From: Acidobacteriaceae bacterium
GTDB taxonomy: Bacteria > Acidobacteriota > Terriglobia > Bryobacterales > Bryobacteraceae
Reading direction: 5' to 3'
Length of the DNA: 64,000 nucleotides
Assembly: GCA_019244055.1 (NCBI GenBank)
Contig: JAFATG010000325.1
Location: forward strand, 1 to 64,000
A model generated the notes under the pieces. That model made no database searches and was not told the DNA's origin. It saw only the letters and a list, made by a program, of their open reading frames with translations. The position numbers and the translations under genes were made by a program. Of this stretch, positions 3,186 to 11,999 are shown in pieces (positions within the stretch are counted from its first letter, which is position 1; the number at the start of each line of letters is the position of its first letter).

Positions 3186-3713
3186 GTGGCCGTCGATACC
3201 GAACGCTGGCGGCGCATCGAGTCCATTTACCATGCAGCGCTGGAGCGCGAGCCGGAGCAGCGCAGCAAATTCATAGCGGAAGCTTGTGCGGGTGACGAAG
3301 GCCTCTGTCATGAAATCGAGTCTCTGTTAGCACAAGCTTCAAAAACTGCTGGGCCTTTGGACGCACCCGCCTGGGACGCCCTGGGCACTTTACTTGGGGA
3401 CGCCAAAGAGTCGCCGCTCGCGCGCGGCACGCAATTAGGTTCCTACATCATCGAGTCCTTGCTCGGCGCGGGCGGCATGGGCATGGTGTACGAGGCGCAG
3501 GATGCCAAACTCCATCGCCGCGTCGCTATCAAGGCGCTTCCCGAAGGAATCTCGGCGCCAAAGCAGGCGATTGAGCGGCTGTGGCGGGAGGCGCGCGCAG
3601 CCTCGGCGCTGAATCATCCAAACATCGCCACGATTCACGCCATTGAGGAATACGAAGGGCGCCTTTTATCGTTATGGAGTTGCTGGAAGGCCAAAGCCTC
3701 AAGCAGCTTATAG
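3186..3713 (+). CDS. Serine/threonine protein kinase, N-terminal fragment (frameshifted gene)
   Basis: First piece of a kinase-propeller gene that runs to 6023 and is broken twice. Starting at GTG, it has the leader typical of these kinases ([19 protein letters not shown]), then the kinase N-lobe: Gly-rich loop [12 protein letters not shown] near residues 93-103 and ATP-binding Lys116 in VAIKALP, followed by the helix-C Glu in [15 protein letters not shown]. Immediately after EEYEGR the frame is lost around 3663-3667; shifting by one base restores FIVMELLEG in the next fragment, so one base is missing from a C/T run. Either a sequencing/assembly indel or a recent mutation. As written, the fragment cannot form an active kinase because it lacks the C-lobe. 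Confidence 0.75.
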
Positions 3714-5008
3714 ACGGCAAACCGCTCAAGCTGGAAACGCTACTGGAACTCGCGATTCAATGTGCCGATGGCCTCAGCGCGGCCCACTCGAAGGGCATCA
3801 TTCACCGCGATGTCAAGCCGGCCAATCTTTTCGTGACTAGCCGCGGACAACTGAAGATTCTGGACTTTGGAGTTGCGAAATTCCAGCAAATCGCCGAGTT
3901 GGCGGCGTCTGCCACGCCACCAGCCAGTGAGCGAACAGACTCCACATCCACTTTGAGCAGCACCGGCGCGCTGATCGGGACCATTGCGTACATGTCGCCG
4001 GAACAGGCGAGCGGAATCGAACTCGATACGCGCACCGACCTGTTCTCATTCGGCGCGGTGCTGTACGAGATGGCGACGGGTATTGCGCCGTTCCGGGGTG
4101 ACAGTGCTGCGCACATTCGAGACTCCATCCTGAGCCGTTCACCTTCGCCTCCCTCGCATGTCAATCCGCGGCTGCCATCGGCACTCGATCGAATCGTCGC
4201 GAAGGCGCTCGAGAAGGATCGGGAGAAGCGCTATCAGAGTGCAGCGGAACTACGTTCGGATCTCCAGGCGCTGCAGCGCAAAGTGGTAGTGCCCCGCAGG
4301 CGAGTATGGGCCGCGGCCATGGCTCTAATCGTCCTCGGGGTGCTAATTGGAGCGCTCTTCTGGGGTCGGTCGCAGCGGTCGACAGCGCGGGCTCCAGATC
4401 TTCTTCCGCTTCCGAGTCGCCTGACTGCAAACGGGCCTGAGTCGCCCATCAATTCAGCAAAGACTTCGCCGGATGGCAGGTACCTGGTGTATTCAGATGC
4501 TGAGGGTGTTCACTTGCAGCTCCCGAGGGGCGGCGTGAGCCACATCGTCCCAAACACGCGCGGTACGTGGGTCATTTGTTGGAGCTTGGATGGGACAACG
4601 GTGTTCCTGCATAACGACAAGGGAAATTACAGCATGTCGCCGGCGAATGAAAAGCTGCACCCGCTCGGGAATGTAACTCCATTCGGCCGGCACGTCTTCG
4701 TGCACACAAAGGATGCAATAGAGACCAGAGACACGCATGGAAAGATGATTTTTTCCTTTGCCCTGCGTGATGACACGAATGGGAGCCTTCGCGAAATGGC
4801 ACGTGGCGCGGATTGGTTGGCGGTCAGCTTCGGCAAACCATCCGGTTTGTCGTCGATCGACGCTTTTCAGCTCGACACAGGCCGGCGGACCACATTGGTA
4901 CCGCCCCAGCCCCATTCCATCACGGGACTTACCTGGCTCTCCAGCGACAGGCTCATGTATTCCCTTGCGGAACAGTTGAATAATAGACTACGTTACCGAA
5001 CCGGATAA
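3674..5008 (+). CDS. Serine/threonine protein kinase C-lobe, TM helix and start of propeller (middle fragment)
   Basis: Continues the preceding fragment in another frame. It holds the kinase C-lobe: catalytic loop [10 protein letters not shown], metal-binding DFGVAKF, activation-segment end [13 protein letters not shown], and helix-F Asp in [11 protein letters not shown] transmembrane segment ([20 protein letters not shown]) separates the cytoplasmic kinase from an extracytoplasmic beta-propeller whose first blades contain [10 protein letters not shown]. The frame is lost again near 4979-4985 and resumes as [19 protein letters not shown] in the original frame. The ATG listed is internal, not a true start. 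Full gene would be ~945 residues, the same architecture and length as the intact kinase at 58850-61696. Confidence 0.75.
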
Positions 5009-5099: not shown

Positions 5100-6023
5100 T
5101 TGTCTGCAACGGCCGACGGCAGGAGCCTCTCTTTTGTCCGCTTTACGCTTCAGCGAAGTATCTGGATTGGGACCCTGAACAGAAAAGCAGCCCGGCTGAG
5201 CGGCCCGCAGCGCCTCACGTATGGCGACGTAGTTGACTCTCCGTGGACATGGACGCGCGACGGCAAAGCCGTGGTGTTCACGTCCAACCGCGGCGGCTCT
5301 CTTCAGAATATGGGCGGGATTTACAAGCAAGACATCGGAACGGAAACCGCGCAAGCGCTTACTGCAGGACCTGGTAGCATTTTGATCGTCAGGCTATCAC
5401 CTGACGGGAATTGGCTGATTTACGCGACGACGCAGGGCGTTAGCACGAAGGTGCAGTTGATGCGTATTCGGATCGGGGGCGGCGAGCCACAGCCAATACT
5501 TGTGAGCGAGAGCTTTGCGGGCCTAAGCTGCAGCCAAATAGCTGGAGGAACTTGTGCGATCTCTGAATCGGACGGCAAAACGACAACCGTTTCCGCAGTC
5601 GATCCGATGAAAGGCCCCGGCGCGGTTCTTTTTCGTGACAAAGGGGCGACCTCCGCGAATATCTCGCCGGATGGAAAGCACGTTGCCTATGTGATCCCGG
5701 ACACACCGTGTAGGCGCGTCCGGATCACGGACTTGCACGGGAGGATCGAAGCAGACGTCACGGTGGCTGGCGTCGAAAATCTGAACAGTTTGGACTGGTC
5801 GGCAGATAGCGCCGGGTTCTTCATGTCTGACATGCGTAGCAACGAGAGTCGCCTGATACATGTTCAGAGGAGCGGCGCGTCACAGATTTTGTGGAGCGTA
5901 CCTTGGCCGACGGATCTATATGGCATTCCTTCGCCGGACGGCCGCTATCTCGCGACGCCTAGGGCAACCTACAGCAGCAACGTCTGGATGGTTCAAGAGC
6001 CCGAGGACCGCGGAAGACGTTAA
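5100..6023 (+). CDS. WD40/TolB-like propeller, C-terminal fragment of the broken kinase
   Basis: Third piece of the gene. It reads in the same phase as the first fragment and is open back to the stop at 4977, so the listed TTG is only the first possible start codon. It encodes repeated PD40-type blades: WTRDGKAVVFTSNRGG, LSPDGNWLIYATT, ISPDGKHVAYVI and LDWSADSAGFFMSD, the usual sensor-like periplasmic half of acidobacterial kinases. The stop lies 19 bases from the end of an oppositely oriented ECF sigma gene, so the two units converge with almost no spacer. The blades are intact, which favours a very recent frameshift or a consensus error. Confidence 0.7.
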   Translation: MSATADGRSLSFVRFTLQRSIWIGTLNRKAARLSGPQRLTYGDVVDSPWTWTRDGKAVVFTSNRGGSLQNMGGIYKQDIGTETAQALTAGPGSILIVRLSPDGNWLIYATTQGVSTKVQLMRIRIGGGEPQPILVSESFAGLSCSQIAGGTCAISESDGKTTTVSAVDPMKGPGAVLFRDKGATSANISPDGKHVAYVIPDTPCRRVRITDLHGRIEADVTVAGVENLNSLDWSADSAGFFMSDMRSNESRLIHVQRSGASQILWSVPWPTDLYGIPSPDGRYLATPRATYSSNVWMVQEPEDRGRR

Positions 6024-8581: not shown

Positions 8582-10399
8582 TCAAAACAGATCGTAGCTG
8601 GGCCAGGCCGAAACGGTATTGATCGCACTCTCGACCGCATTGGCCATGTTGCCGGCATACAGGTCGGTGCCGGGTCTGAAGTTCGCAATCGCCGCATACT
8701 CGAAGCCGTTCCCCAGAACGCGAAGCATGGAGATGGTTCCTTCGAGATCACCGTTATGCCATTGCGGATTGGCTACCCATCCGAACGCATAGTCAGGATC
8801 CTTGCCGGCCGCGTCTTTTATGTGAGCCGCTGTGGTCATGGTCGTGTGCGAAGCGGCGCTCATGATGTCTGGTTTAGCAGTGTTCCCATCCACGCGCACC
8901 AGAAAACGGACCAGATCGACCGGCGAAGCGATCCAGCCGCCGTGCGAATCCATTCGCGTCACGTTCAGAGTGTACGCGTCCGCTGGGTAGTACGTTACCT
9001 CCCGCGGCGCGCGCTGGTTCTGAGCATTTCCGGCTATCCGCATTTGAGTGATCCCGCAAGGAGCCATCACATGAGCCTTGACGTAATTCTCATAGCTCAT
9101 GCCGGTCTTCGCTTCAATGACGCGGCCAAGCACGCAATAACCGAAATTCAGATATTCGTATTGCGAGCCCGGCTGCCGCGCGACCTTCCTGGTTGGATCG
9201 TTCAGCACCCAATTGATTAGCTGCTGGTGATCGTAATTCAGGTTCTGGAACATCGGATCGTTCGGCGAATCAGTTAAGCCCGACACATGCTCCAGCAAGT
9301 ATCGGATCGTAATTCCATTGATGAGCTGGTTGTTCGCTGGAGTTGGATATTGCGAAGAGAGGATTCCACCTGGCCCGAACACGTGGTCATCCAAGTGGAC
9401 TGTGCCGGCCTCTACCAGCTTCATGATCGTCGCGGACGTGAACGTCTTCGATACGCTCGCGATTCGCATCAGGTTTGTGGGGCCCAGCTCTTCTCCCGAG
9501 GCTTGATCCGCATATCCGAATCCGGCGGCGTAGACCAGCCGCTCGTCTTTCGTGATCGCCACCGCTACGCCAGGGACCTGGTAGGCACTCATATAGCTCT
9601 TCACGTACGACTCGATGGTGCTAAGATCGGCCCACGAAAATACTGTGTTCTGCCAGATGCCGTTTAGCTTACCGGCGCTGCCAGATGTGAAGGCATTGAT
9701 GAATTCAGGGACGTAGCCCTGGTAGTAGAAATTGTCGAAGACATTTTGATACCACGCGTCCGGTACTCCGTTTCGGGCATACCATACGGGTCCGTTTGTC
9801 TTTTCCCAAATCGCGGCATAATAATCCTGCCCGCCCGCATTGTATCCGCTCACTATCTTCAGCCGGTAGCCCTGGCCATTCAGTTGATTGAACGTCTGTT
9901 GATATTCAGAAGAGTTCAACGCGTGACGTGCCTCATACGCCGGCCCGGAAGACTGTTCCCAAATCGCCGCATAGAGAACATTTCCACCTTGCGTATAACC
10001 GCACACGTGAACTAGCCGGTAACCCTGTTTGGAGAAGCTGTCGAAGGCGGCCTGGTAATCGGCGCTTGTCATTCCGTGTCTGGCCTGCCATGCAGAACCG
10101 CTGCCTTTGTCCCAAATCGTCGCAAAGCTCGCCTGGCCTTGAAATTCATGAGCGTTGACGTATCTGAGCCGATATCCTTGGCCAACGTAAGTATTGAAGG
10201 CGTTCTGATAATCTGCCGCTGATAAACCGTGCCGCGCAACCCAAGCCGGTCCGCTTCCGCTGACCCACAACGCTGCGTATCGTTCCCCATTGCTGACGTA
10301 ACCACTCACGTTGACTAGCCGGTAGCCCTGCTTGACTAAGCTGTCAAACGTGGACTGATAATCGGCCGGTGTCAAACCATGTCTTGCAACCCAAGCCAT
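8582..10399 (-). CDS. Tandem-repeat N-domain plus serine beta-lactamase-fold hydrolase (polyglycine-hydrolase-like)
   Basis: Two-part protein. Residues ~2-250 are five repeats of about 50 residues, each with WxARHGLxxxDYQxxFxxxxxQGYRLxxVxGY and ending in a xxAxIW strand; this looks like the bacterial tandem repeat domain found in fungal polyglycine hydrolases. The rest is a class C beta-lactamase/DD-peptidase fold with the nucleophile motif SVSK (Ser at about 315 from this start) and the YLN triad (~416). The ATG at 10399 is preferred over the upstream GTG because GGAG lies 6 bases before it. No signal peptide is visible from this start, odd for this fold. Likely a peptidase or esterase; substrate not determinable. 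Confidence 0.85.
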   Translation of the reverse strand: MAWVARHGLTPADYQSTFDSLVKQGYRLVNVSGYVSNGERYAALWVSGSGPAWVARHGLSAADYQNAFNTYVGQGYRLRYVNAHEFQGQASFATIWDKGSGSAWQARHGMTSADYQAAFDSFSKQGYRLVHVCGYTQGGNVLYAAIWEQSSGPAYEARHALNSSEYQQTFNQLNGQGYRLKIVSGYNAGGQDYYAAIWEKTNGPVWYARNGVPDAWYQNVFDNFYYQGYVPEFINAFTSGSAGKLNGIWQNTVFSWADLSTIESYVKSYMSAYQVPGVAVAITKDERLVYAAGFGYADQASGEELGPTNLMRIASVSKTFTSATIMKLVEAGTVHLDDHVFGPGGILSSQYPTPANNQLINGITIRYLLEHVSGLTDSPNDPMFQNLNYDHQQLINWVLNDPTRKVARQPGSQYEYLNFGYCVLGRVIEAKTGMSYENYVKAHVMAPCGITQMRIAGNAQNQRAPREVTYYPADAYTLNVTRMDSHGGWIASPVDLVRFLVRVDGNTAKPDIMSAASHTTMTTAAHIKDAAGKDPDYAFGWVANPQWHNGDLEGTISMLRVLGNGFEYAAIANFRPGTDLYAGNMANAVESAINTVSAWPSYDLF

Positions 10400-10566
10400 C
10401 CTGATCTCCTTCCGCACACTCGTGGTCGGGCCTATGACTTCGTTTCACCAGATCTATCCGATGCCAAAACAAGCGGTGCATTCGGCTCGCTAGTTGTTTT
10501 GCGCGGAAACAACTATTCTTTGCCGCTGGTCATCTCTGGGTCACCTTTTCAACACTTGATTGCAGC

Positions 10567-11286
10567 ATGCCAGTAACCGAGTGCCTCGAAACCAACATTC
10601 CCGCGCGCCTCGACCGGCTGCCCTGGAGTCGGTGGCATCTGCTCGTAGTTGTCTCCCTCGGTATTACTTGGCTGCTCGATGGCCTTGAAGGAAATCTTGC
10701 TGGCTCGCTCGCTGGCGTCCTTATGCGCCACGACACGCTGGCTCTCACAAACGCGCAGATAGGCCTTAGCGGTACGTACTACCTCGCCGGTGCCGTTCTC
10801 GGCGCGCTTGTTTTCGGCTATGCGACGGATCGTTTCGGACGCAAGAAGCTCTTCACCATCACGTTGCTGCTCTATCTTTCCGCGACCCTTGCGACCGCTT
10901 TCTCCTGGAATTTTGCGAGCTTCACCTTTTTCCGCTCCCTCACCGGTGCGGGAATTGGAGGCGAGTATGCTGCCGTCAACTCCGCAGTGGACGAGCTAAT
11001 TCCTGCGCGTGTCCGAGGGCACGTAGATCTCCTGATCAATTCAACTTTCTGGATCGGTGCGGCCCTCGGCTCCGGGGCGTCGCTGCTGCTGCTTGACACC
11101 GGCATTCTTCCTCCCACTTTGGGTTGGCGCGCAGCTTTCGGTGTCGGCGCAGTCATTGGTGCAGGCGTGCTCGTCATGCGCCACTTTGTGCCGGAGAGCG
11201 CCCGCTGGCTCATTATTCACGGCAGGCAGAAAGAAGCCGAATCGATCGTAGACCAAATTGAACAAAAGTCGCTGGGTCTCGCTTAA
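10567..11286 (+). CDS. MFS transporter, N-terminal half (frameshifted gene)
   Basis: Sugar-porter-like major facilitator, first six helices. Helices begin at LLVVVSLGITWLLDGLEGN; the loop 2-3 motif appears as GYATDRFGRKK and the loop 4 region as RSLTGAGIGGEYAAVNSAVDELIPARVRG, typical of the metabolite:H+ symporter branch. The fragment ends PESARWLIIHGRQKEAESIVDQIEQKS and then stops. An A4 run near 11266-11270 is one base short: adding one A restores KVAGSR...QLPPAEHAIKLEARDRTPFREIW in the following frame. The whole gene would encode ~478 residues to 11999. Confidence 0.8.
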   Translation: MPVTECLETNIPARLDRLPWSRWHLLVVVSLGITWLLDGLEGNLAGSLAGVLMRHDTLALTNAQIGLSGTYYLAGAVLGALVFGYATDRFGRKKLFTITLLLYLSATLATAFSWNFASFTFFRSLTGAGIGGEYAAVNSAVDELIPARVRGHVDLLINSTFWIGAALGSGASLLLLDTGILPPTLGWRAAFGVGAVIGAGVLVMRHFVPESARWLIIHGRQKEAESIVDQIEQKSLGLA

Positions 11287-11363: not shown

Positions 11364-11999
11364 ATGGTGCACGAACACCGGAAACGCTCCATTCTAGGGT
11401 TCTCGCTAATGGTGGCGCAAGCTTTGTTCTACAACGGTGTTCAGTTCACCTATGGATTGATGCTTCTGCGGTACTACCATGTACCCGCACAGAAACTCGG
11501 GCTTTATCTTGTTCCGCTTGCCTTGGGCAATTTCCTCGGACCGCTGACGATCGGGCGGCTCTTCGACACGGTGGGAAGGCGAATCATGATCTCGAGCACG
11601 TACATCGGTTCGGGCGCTCTCCTGGCAATCACCGCTTGGCTCTTTCGAATCGGGATGCTTACCGCCTTAACCCAACAGATCTGCTGGAGCGTCATCTTCT
11701 TTATTGCATCGTCTGCGGCCAGCGCCGCCTATCTCACGGTAAGCGAAGTCTTCCCGCTGGAAATTCGCGCAATCGCGATCTCCATCTTTTATGCCTGCGG
11801 CACTCTGGCCGGAGGGGTCGGTGGCCCGGCGCTCTACGGCTATCTGGTTGGCTCAGGGTCGAGGGGCCTCCTTTTCTGGGGCTATATCGCTGGTGCCGCT
11901 GTGATGGCCGCCGGTGGAATGGCAGAAGTTTTTCTGGGCGTCAACGCAGAAAGGAAATCGTTAGAGGACGTCGCCCGTCCCTTAGCGTGCCGCGACTGA
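11364..11999 (+). CDS. MFS transporter, C-terminal half (frameshifted gene)
   Basis: Second six helices of the same transporter. The frame is open back to about 11270, so the listed ATG is internal to the original protein. Visible elements: HRKRSILGFSLMVAQALFYN (helix 7), IGRLFDTVGRRIMI (the second RxGRR-type loop between helices 8 and 9), YLTVSEVFPLEIRAIAISIFYACG (helix 11 PESP-like region) and a terminal helix. The halves fit together in register, so functional loss, if real, is recent. Next gene starts 9 bases after the stop and encodes another MFS protein, suggesting one transport operon. Confidence 0.78.
   Translation: MVHEHRKRSILGFSLMVAQALFYNGVQFTYGLMLLRYYHVPAQKLGLYLVPLALGNFLGPLTIGRLFDTVGRRIMISSTYIGSGALLAITAWLFRIGMLTALTQQICWSVIFFIASSAASAAYLTVSEVFPLEIRAIAISIFYACGTLAGGVGGPALYGYLVGSGSRGLLFWGYIAGAAVMAAGGMAEVFLGVNAERKSLEDVARPLACRD

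Follow-up and report, generated by a model that had tools for sequence, protein, structure and literature searches.

A BTRD1 serine hydrolase of Acidobacteriota with the predicted repeat fold, but not the active-site type, of the fungal polyglycine hydrolases

The closest described systems are the fungal polyglycine hydrolases Fvan-cmp (PDB 7tpu), Es-cmp and Bz-cmp, of which Fvan-cmp consists of five EHEE repeats followed by an S12-fold domain (PMC9912923). Enzymes of this type cleave Gly-Gly bonds in a chitinase linker, the target of Fvan-cmp being a defence protein of maize. Fvan-cmp is without the third active-site motif and has a phenylalanine where a glycine is expected, and the tested fungal enzymes had no beta-lactamase activity (PMC9912923). 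In the same report, the function of the N-terminal domain (N-domain) is stated as unknown, and its fold is already described as occurring mostly in bacteria. Bacterial proteins with this repeat (BTRD1; Pfam PF17660) are already known, and the protein described here adds one member; among the papers listed, no title or abstract opening mentions bacterial proteins related to polyglycine hydrolases over their full length.

Here, we analyzed a window of 64,000 nt from an Acidobacteriaceae bacterium (the whole stretch, contig JAFATG010000325.1), for which the initial annotation had claimed five repeats fused to a serine beta-lactamase-type domain carrying SVSK and YLN. The reading frame contains 605 uninterrupted codons (Table 1), both parts were recognized by Pfam (PF17660 and PF00144), and the motifs aligned with those of relatives, confirming the claim. 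An in-frame stop lies upstream of the ATG with fifteen open codons in between, including a GTG at 10417. A PF17660 search of the source genome (372 contigs, 96.7% completeness) found this to be its sole BTRD1 gene. The G+C content of the gene (0.552) is slightly lower than that of nine other window genes (0.564 to 0.593), and that of the part encoding the N-domain is lower both overall (0.534) and at third positions (0.591). The third-position value of the whole gene (0.648) falls within the range of the other nine (0.635 to 0.692). The composition gives no clear sign of recent import, and a foreign base composition was rejected.

Table 1. Positions of the BTRD1-S12 gene and its features in the window
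Feature	Position	Strand	Details
BTRD1x5-S12 gene	8582..10399	(-)	605 aa, ATG start, stop codon included
Ribosome-binding site AAGGAG	10406..10411	(-)	Six bases 5' of ATG at 10399; matched by start-site script
N-domain, five EHEE units	9644..10399	(-)	AlphaFold2 mean pLDDT 89.3; 7tpu TM 0.87
BTRD1 repeat 1	10262..10396	(-)	PF17660, 76.8 bits
BTRD1 repeat 2	10106..10252	(-)	PF17660, 75.9 bits
BTRD1 repeat 3	9950..10099	(-)	PF17660, 91.8 bits
BTRD1 repeat 4	9797..9946	(-)	PF17660, 79.7 bits
BTRD1 repeat 5, degenerate	9647..9793	(-)	PF17660, 38.0 bits
PF00144 serine hydrolase (S12-type) domain	8639..9613	(-)	Residues 263-587; Pfam 174.1 bits, cut-off 27
SVSK motif	9446..9457	(-)	Residues 315-318, putative nucleophile Ser315 and Lys318; alignments
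Y416-L-N418 motif	9146..9154	(-)	Alignments
H548-N549-G550, third motif (KTG position)	8750..8758	(-)	25-row alignment

The PF17660 profile matched the protein in five tandem stretches with 312.8 bits (E = 2.3e-95, taken from the Pfam search itself; cut-off, 23). ARHG starts are found at residues 5, 55 and 106, with the variants ARHA at 157 and ARNG at 208, the latter replacement making the fifth repeat degenerate. Modelled alone with AlphaFold2, the N-domain (pLDDT 89.3, pTM 0.86) forms five strand-helix-strand-strand units, i.e., the EHEE repeat unit described for Fvan-cmp (PMC9912923). Structure prediction and comparison with the fungal enzymes had been proposed in the initial annotation, and the repeat domain was indeed predicted to have the same fold as Fvan-cmp: a Foldseek search of the PDB returned 7tpu (TM 0.87, rmsd 2.6 A, E = 2.5e-10) and nothing else at E <= 0.001, and VIA superposed 245 residues of the two at an rmsd of 2.5 A and a Z score of 29.4, with no other row of its second-look list above Z 6.2; sequence identity is 17%. 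The confident model and the fold match both support, for residues 1-252, a five-unit EHEE barrel like that of Fvan-cmp.

The second domain carries SxxK, YxN and H/K-x-G in the order that marks PF00144/S12 enzymes (S315-K318, Y416-N418 and H548-G550). Ser315, Lys318, Tyr416 and Asn418 were invariant in all six rows of one alignment; among 25 aligned S12 domains, SxxK was present in every row, Y-x-N in 24 (the exception being L097, with Y-S-T; loci are cited by our L numbers) and H-x-G, including the H-N-G of the window protein, in 16. Its best PDB sequence match was 2qmi, a Pyrococcus abyssi PBP homologue (87.7 bits by phmmer), with 7tpu reaching only 43.5 bits. SxxK and YxN align between the window protein and 2qmi, and the weak model of the C-terminal domain (C-domain) superposes on it with 270 residues at an rmsd of 3.7 A (Z 20.8), but the match is limited to the catalytic domain. 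Entries for a D-amino-acid amidase, D-peptidase, DD-peptidase and esterase also matched the C-domain, all at Z scores of about 20. In the AlphaFold2 model of the whole protein (mean pLDDT 72), the N-domain is confident and the C-domain weak, with residues 374-418 and 522-553 under pLDDT 50. Despite its low sequence rank, 7tpu is the first fold match for this model (Z 29.1), but the rmsd is 21.2 A over 479 residues and the Foldseek TM 0.37; the predicted domain arrangement is unlike that of the crystal, and we therefore used the fold match of single domains only.

Next, we considered location. Sixteen BTRD1-S12 proteins with a readable start were scored for signal peptides by a hydropathy heuristic (not SignalP), and eight of these appeared to lack one (the window protein, L110, L139, L140, L141, L142, L143 and L144). 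All eight belong to the window's phylum, and in each the start chosen is preceded by 4-6 bases that resemble a ribosome-binding site; L139, the least clear, scored 1.58 and the other seven 0.16 to 0.57, versus 2.3 to 3.5 for the eight with a signal peptide (L039, L040, L041, L096, L097, L104, L108 and L146). L170 appears by eye to have one as well. The claim that the window protein has no signal peptide at its best start is thus supported by the heuristic and by the in-frame upstream stop, and further proteins of the phylum share this trait; inspection of three frames upstream of the ATG revealed no hidden signal peptide. Within its own clade (see below), the window protein is the exception among readable starts, since L096, L039 and L040 have signal peptides and L169 has no readable start. 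Most probably, the protein is either cytoplasmic or exported by a non-Sec route.

Pfam names near the gene comprise a kinase piece, PD40 repeats, an ECF sigma factor, an SMP-30-like protein, MFS transporters, GH130 and DUF4159, and one neighbor has no Pfam match. Around 11 BTRD1 genes (nine with S12 and two with other partners), no recurring neighbors were seen by eye in the first 70 residues of each neighbor, and an operon or secretion partner was rejected on this basis. Two neighboring loci appear interrupted. A sugar-type MFS transporter lies in two pieces (window 10567-11286 and 11364-11999; PF00083 positions 39-217 and 251-431), pointing to a frame break or pseudogene, and at 3674-5008 the match to a protein kinase domain begins only at profile position 77, with PD40 repeats coming next in a different frame (5100-6023), so that the two perhaps form one broken receptor-kinase gene. 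The full protein matches 179 phage records; the 20 matches listed all fall within residues 227-503, and several among them carry the annotation minor tail protein with lysin activity or D-Ala-D-Ala carboxypeptidase. For the N-domain, a search of 50,697 phage records gave no match at E <= 1e-5, and a phage origin was rejected. A defence system was likewise rejected, as no PADLOC family was found.

A search for the repeats in other bacteria, also proposed at the outset, was carried out with PF17660 and yielded 38 BTRD1 genes in 34 genomes. These came from surveys of the window's phylum (396 genomes, 11 with matches), class (399, 11) and family (237, 15), which overlap, together with the phylum of a Flavobacteriaceae genome (395, 4). 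Genes split over contigs (in Ca. Angelobacter Gp1-AA117, hereafter AA117, and in G1523) were counted once each, and five loci met by other queries (L040, L041, L045, L046 and L091) were left out. In a further phylum, that of a Clostridia record, BTRD1 was found in two of 299 genomes, both marginal and one above the cut-off; these are outside the 38. The catalytic partner was PF00144 in 18 genes (AA117 included), M23 in eight (two just under the Pfam cut-off), PF13354 in three, papain-type C1 in one and an M12-like domain in one (under the cut-off, its HExxHxxGxxD read by eye), and no partner was recognized in seven, one of them a 98-aa fragment. A peptidase-type domain thus occurs in 31 of the 38 genes (28 above the Pfam cut-off; a raw count over two phyla), for which reason BTRD1 looks like a peptidase-associated module. 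It can stand on either side of the enzyme, coming after it in L097 and L139, and proteins pairing it with M23, PF13354, C1 or M12-like domains share the repeat module with the window protein but differ in the catalytic domain. To judge by these domain combinations, BTRD1 looks like an exchangeable module joined to several unrelated peptidase types in the bacteria surveyed.

Several individual BTRD1 proteins were also recorded. A same-genus protein (L092, 1379-3394, (-) strand) has a papain-type C1 domain, five BTRD1 repeats and no obvious signal peptide. In a Flavobacteriaceae genome, a second BTRD1 gene (L039, 7856-9376), the C-terminal part of which is unrecognized, comes immediately after the BTRD1-S12 gene. 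Two BTRD1 proteins (L145 and L174) share an unrecognized N-terminal domain in which HE(I/V)FEA(S/A)(A/T)DP is conserved, perhaps another type of hydrolase.

As to function, we give an even chance to the reading that the window protein is a stand-alone SxxK serine hydrolase whose probable substrates are peptides with Gly or D-amino acids, bound with the help of the barrel. The enzyme would comprise the barrel (residues 1-252) and an SxxK hydrolase of PF00144/peptidase S12 type (residues 255-605). Ser315 would serve as the nucleophile, the general base and acid would be Lys318 and Tyr416, and HNG would lie on the terminal strand, roles that we assume by carrying them over from S12 enzymes. An amide bond next to a Gly or D-amino acid would then be hydrolysed via a Ser-bound acyl-enzyme, and the barrel may hold the peptide or anchor the enzyme to its polymer. 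The protein represents one BTRD1 combination, common to Acidobacteriota and Bacteroidota, and lies outside the lineage to which the fungal enzyme is closest.

The main competitor, possible though in our judgment doubtful, is an S12-fold esterase, amidase or acyltransferase acting on a small molecule, with the barrel serving stability or assembly instead of peptide binding. Esterases and acyltransferases (7pp3, 7atl, 7spn, 6kjp and LovD) score as high as peptidases against the C-domain model, which leaves the bond cleaved unsettled; esterases and peptidases of the S12 fold have the HxG motif in common; and the gene that follows after 64 bases on the same strand is SMP-30/gluconolactonase-like. 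However, the neighbors of BTRD1 genes do not recur by eye, and in the surveys BTRD1 is found mostly with peptidase-type domains, M23 and C1 included.

We regard it as unlikely that the protein is a true bacterial polyglycine hydrolase, i.e., an endopeptidase on Gly-Gly bonds in a glycine-rich linker. Domain order and N-domain fold are those of the fungal enzymes, and SVSK and Y-x-N are present in both Fvan-cmp and the window protein, but the third motif differs, being R563-D564-G in Fvan-cmp and H548-N549-G550 in the window protein, and F534 of Fvan-cmp stands where the window protein has G487 (both columns obtained by chaining the L140-7tpu alignment to the L140-window alignment). R-x-G recurs in all four aligned rows of a bacterial clade referred to here as PGH-like (RAG in L110, RTG in L140, RSG in L141 and RDG in L142); it is not unique to that clade, since L048, which is without BTRD1, has R-T-G as well, and the first position is Q in L139, K in L143, Y in L144 and F in L093. 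Scores to 7tpu were obtained with phmmer. For L140 (378.7 bits), L110 (356.6), L141 (313.7) and L143 (116.9), 7tpu is the best PDB match and spans both domains, and for L039 (67.2), L096 (65.4) and the window protein the best match is another S12 enzyme. By sequence, other proteins of the same phylum are thus much more closely related to the fungal enzyme, and they fill the place that this reading would assign to the window protein. The initial description as a bacterial relative of the fungal enzymes therefore holds for repeat fold and two-domain plan and fails for the type of active site; polyglycine-hydrolase identity fails on the HNG motif, on 2qmi outranking 7tpu by sequence and on the signal peptide, none being seen, and the enzyme may still work in a similar way.

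A PBP-like or beta-lactamase-type protein acting on peptidoglycan or beta-lactams is equally improbable: the R61 DD-peptidase (3pte, 1hvb and 1ikg) matches the C-domain at Z 19.6 to 19.9, but the class C beta-lactamase model NF033085 (NCBIfam) gave 55.6 bits against a cut-off of 415, no signal peptide was seen while peptidoglycan lies outside the cytoplasm, and the tested fungal enzymes lacked beta-lactamase activity (PMC9912923).

Returning to the preferred reading of a peptide-directed SxxK hydrolase, we analyzed its relatives in a tree of 28 catalytic domains, which left out 7tpu. The window protein groups with L096, L169, L039 and L040 (support 95/91), and the PGH-like clade is separate (100/100). 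The window fork is weaker (83/94) in a 25-row tree without L169, and the placement of L139 and L097 is unsure, as both are long branches. Two phyla alternate within the window clade, the window protein pairing with L096 (98/92) and L169 joining the two Flavobacteriaceae sequences, L039 and L040 (98/97), and this alternation of sequences suggests transfer between phyla. The best relative by identity is that of AA117 (68% in its best-matching segment); Ca. Angelobacter belongs to the class Terriglobia of Acidobacteriota. The AA117 gene is broken: it lies on two contigs (L094 164-787 and L095 474-1266), shows an internal deletion and changes frame, through either decay or an assembly fault. Its short hydrophobic start was set aside as a signal-peptide clue, since in a broken gene it decides nothing, and a transposase reading of a 127-aa ORF beside the break was dropped for want of a Pfam family. 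Catalytic-domain relatives without BTRD1 are L042 (46% identity), L047, L048, L049 and L093; no BTRD1 match was present in the records behind the first four.

The repeated pairing of the barrel with unrelated peptidases points to a common role, and there are many bacterial proteins in which to test it. We tentatively propose, as a minority view even among ourselves, that BTRD1 may be a general peptidase-associated binding barrel (with S12, class-A-like, M23, papain and metzincin-like partners) that guides Gly-rich or peptidoglycan-like peptides to the active site. The fungal polyglycine hydrolases would then be a branch from a bacterial BTRD1-S12 lineage now in Acidobacteriota, several members of which have no signal peptide and would be intracellular or use some other exit, and the window enzyme would form a sister branch in which the older active site is kept. 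Within the same phylum, the PGH-like clade allows one to compare, in bacteria, how a scaffold for hydrolysing D-amino-acid substrates or esters could turn into a Gly-Gly endopeptidase, and the window protein, with the same barrel and an ordinary S12 motif, is a natural control.

In comparison with the known systems, the window protein resembles the fungal polyglycine hydrolases in its five EHEE repeats followed by an S12-fold domain, with an N-domain TM of 0.87, but it scores far lower against 7tpu than L110, L140 and L141 do (43.5 versus 314-379 bits), and no signal peptide was seen here by heuristic and upstream stop, secretion with one being a mark of the fungal enzymes. The PGH-like clade (L110, L140, L141, L142 and L167, all of the same phylum) likewise has BTRD1 repeats, of which three or four pass Pfam alone, followed by PF00144, and its four tested members are, as the window protein, without a signal peptide by the heuristic; it differs in the R-x-G motif of the four aligned members, in its fully supported separate position and in having 7tpu as the best PDB match over both domains in the three members searched. 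Bizionia and other Bacteroidota have BTRD1-S12 proteins (L039, L040, L041 and L096) that share with the window protein the same domain order, 41-43% identity over nearly the full length, the HxG motif and a C-terminal WPxxDLF or YPxxDLF, and differ from it in carrying signal peptides by the heuristic.
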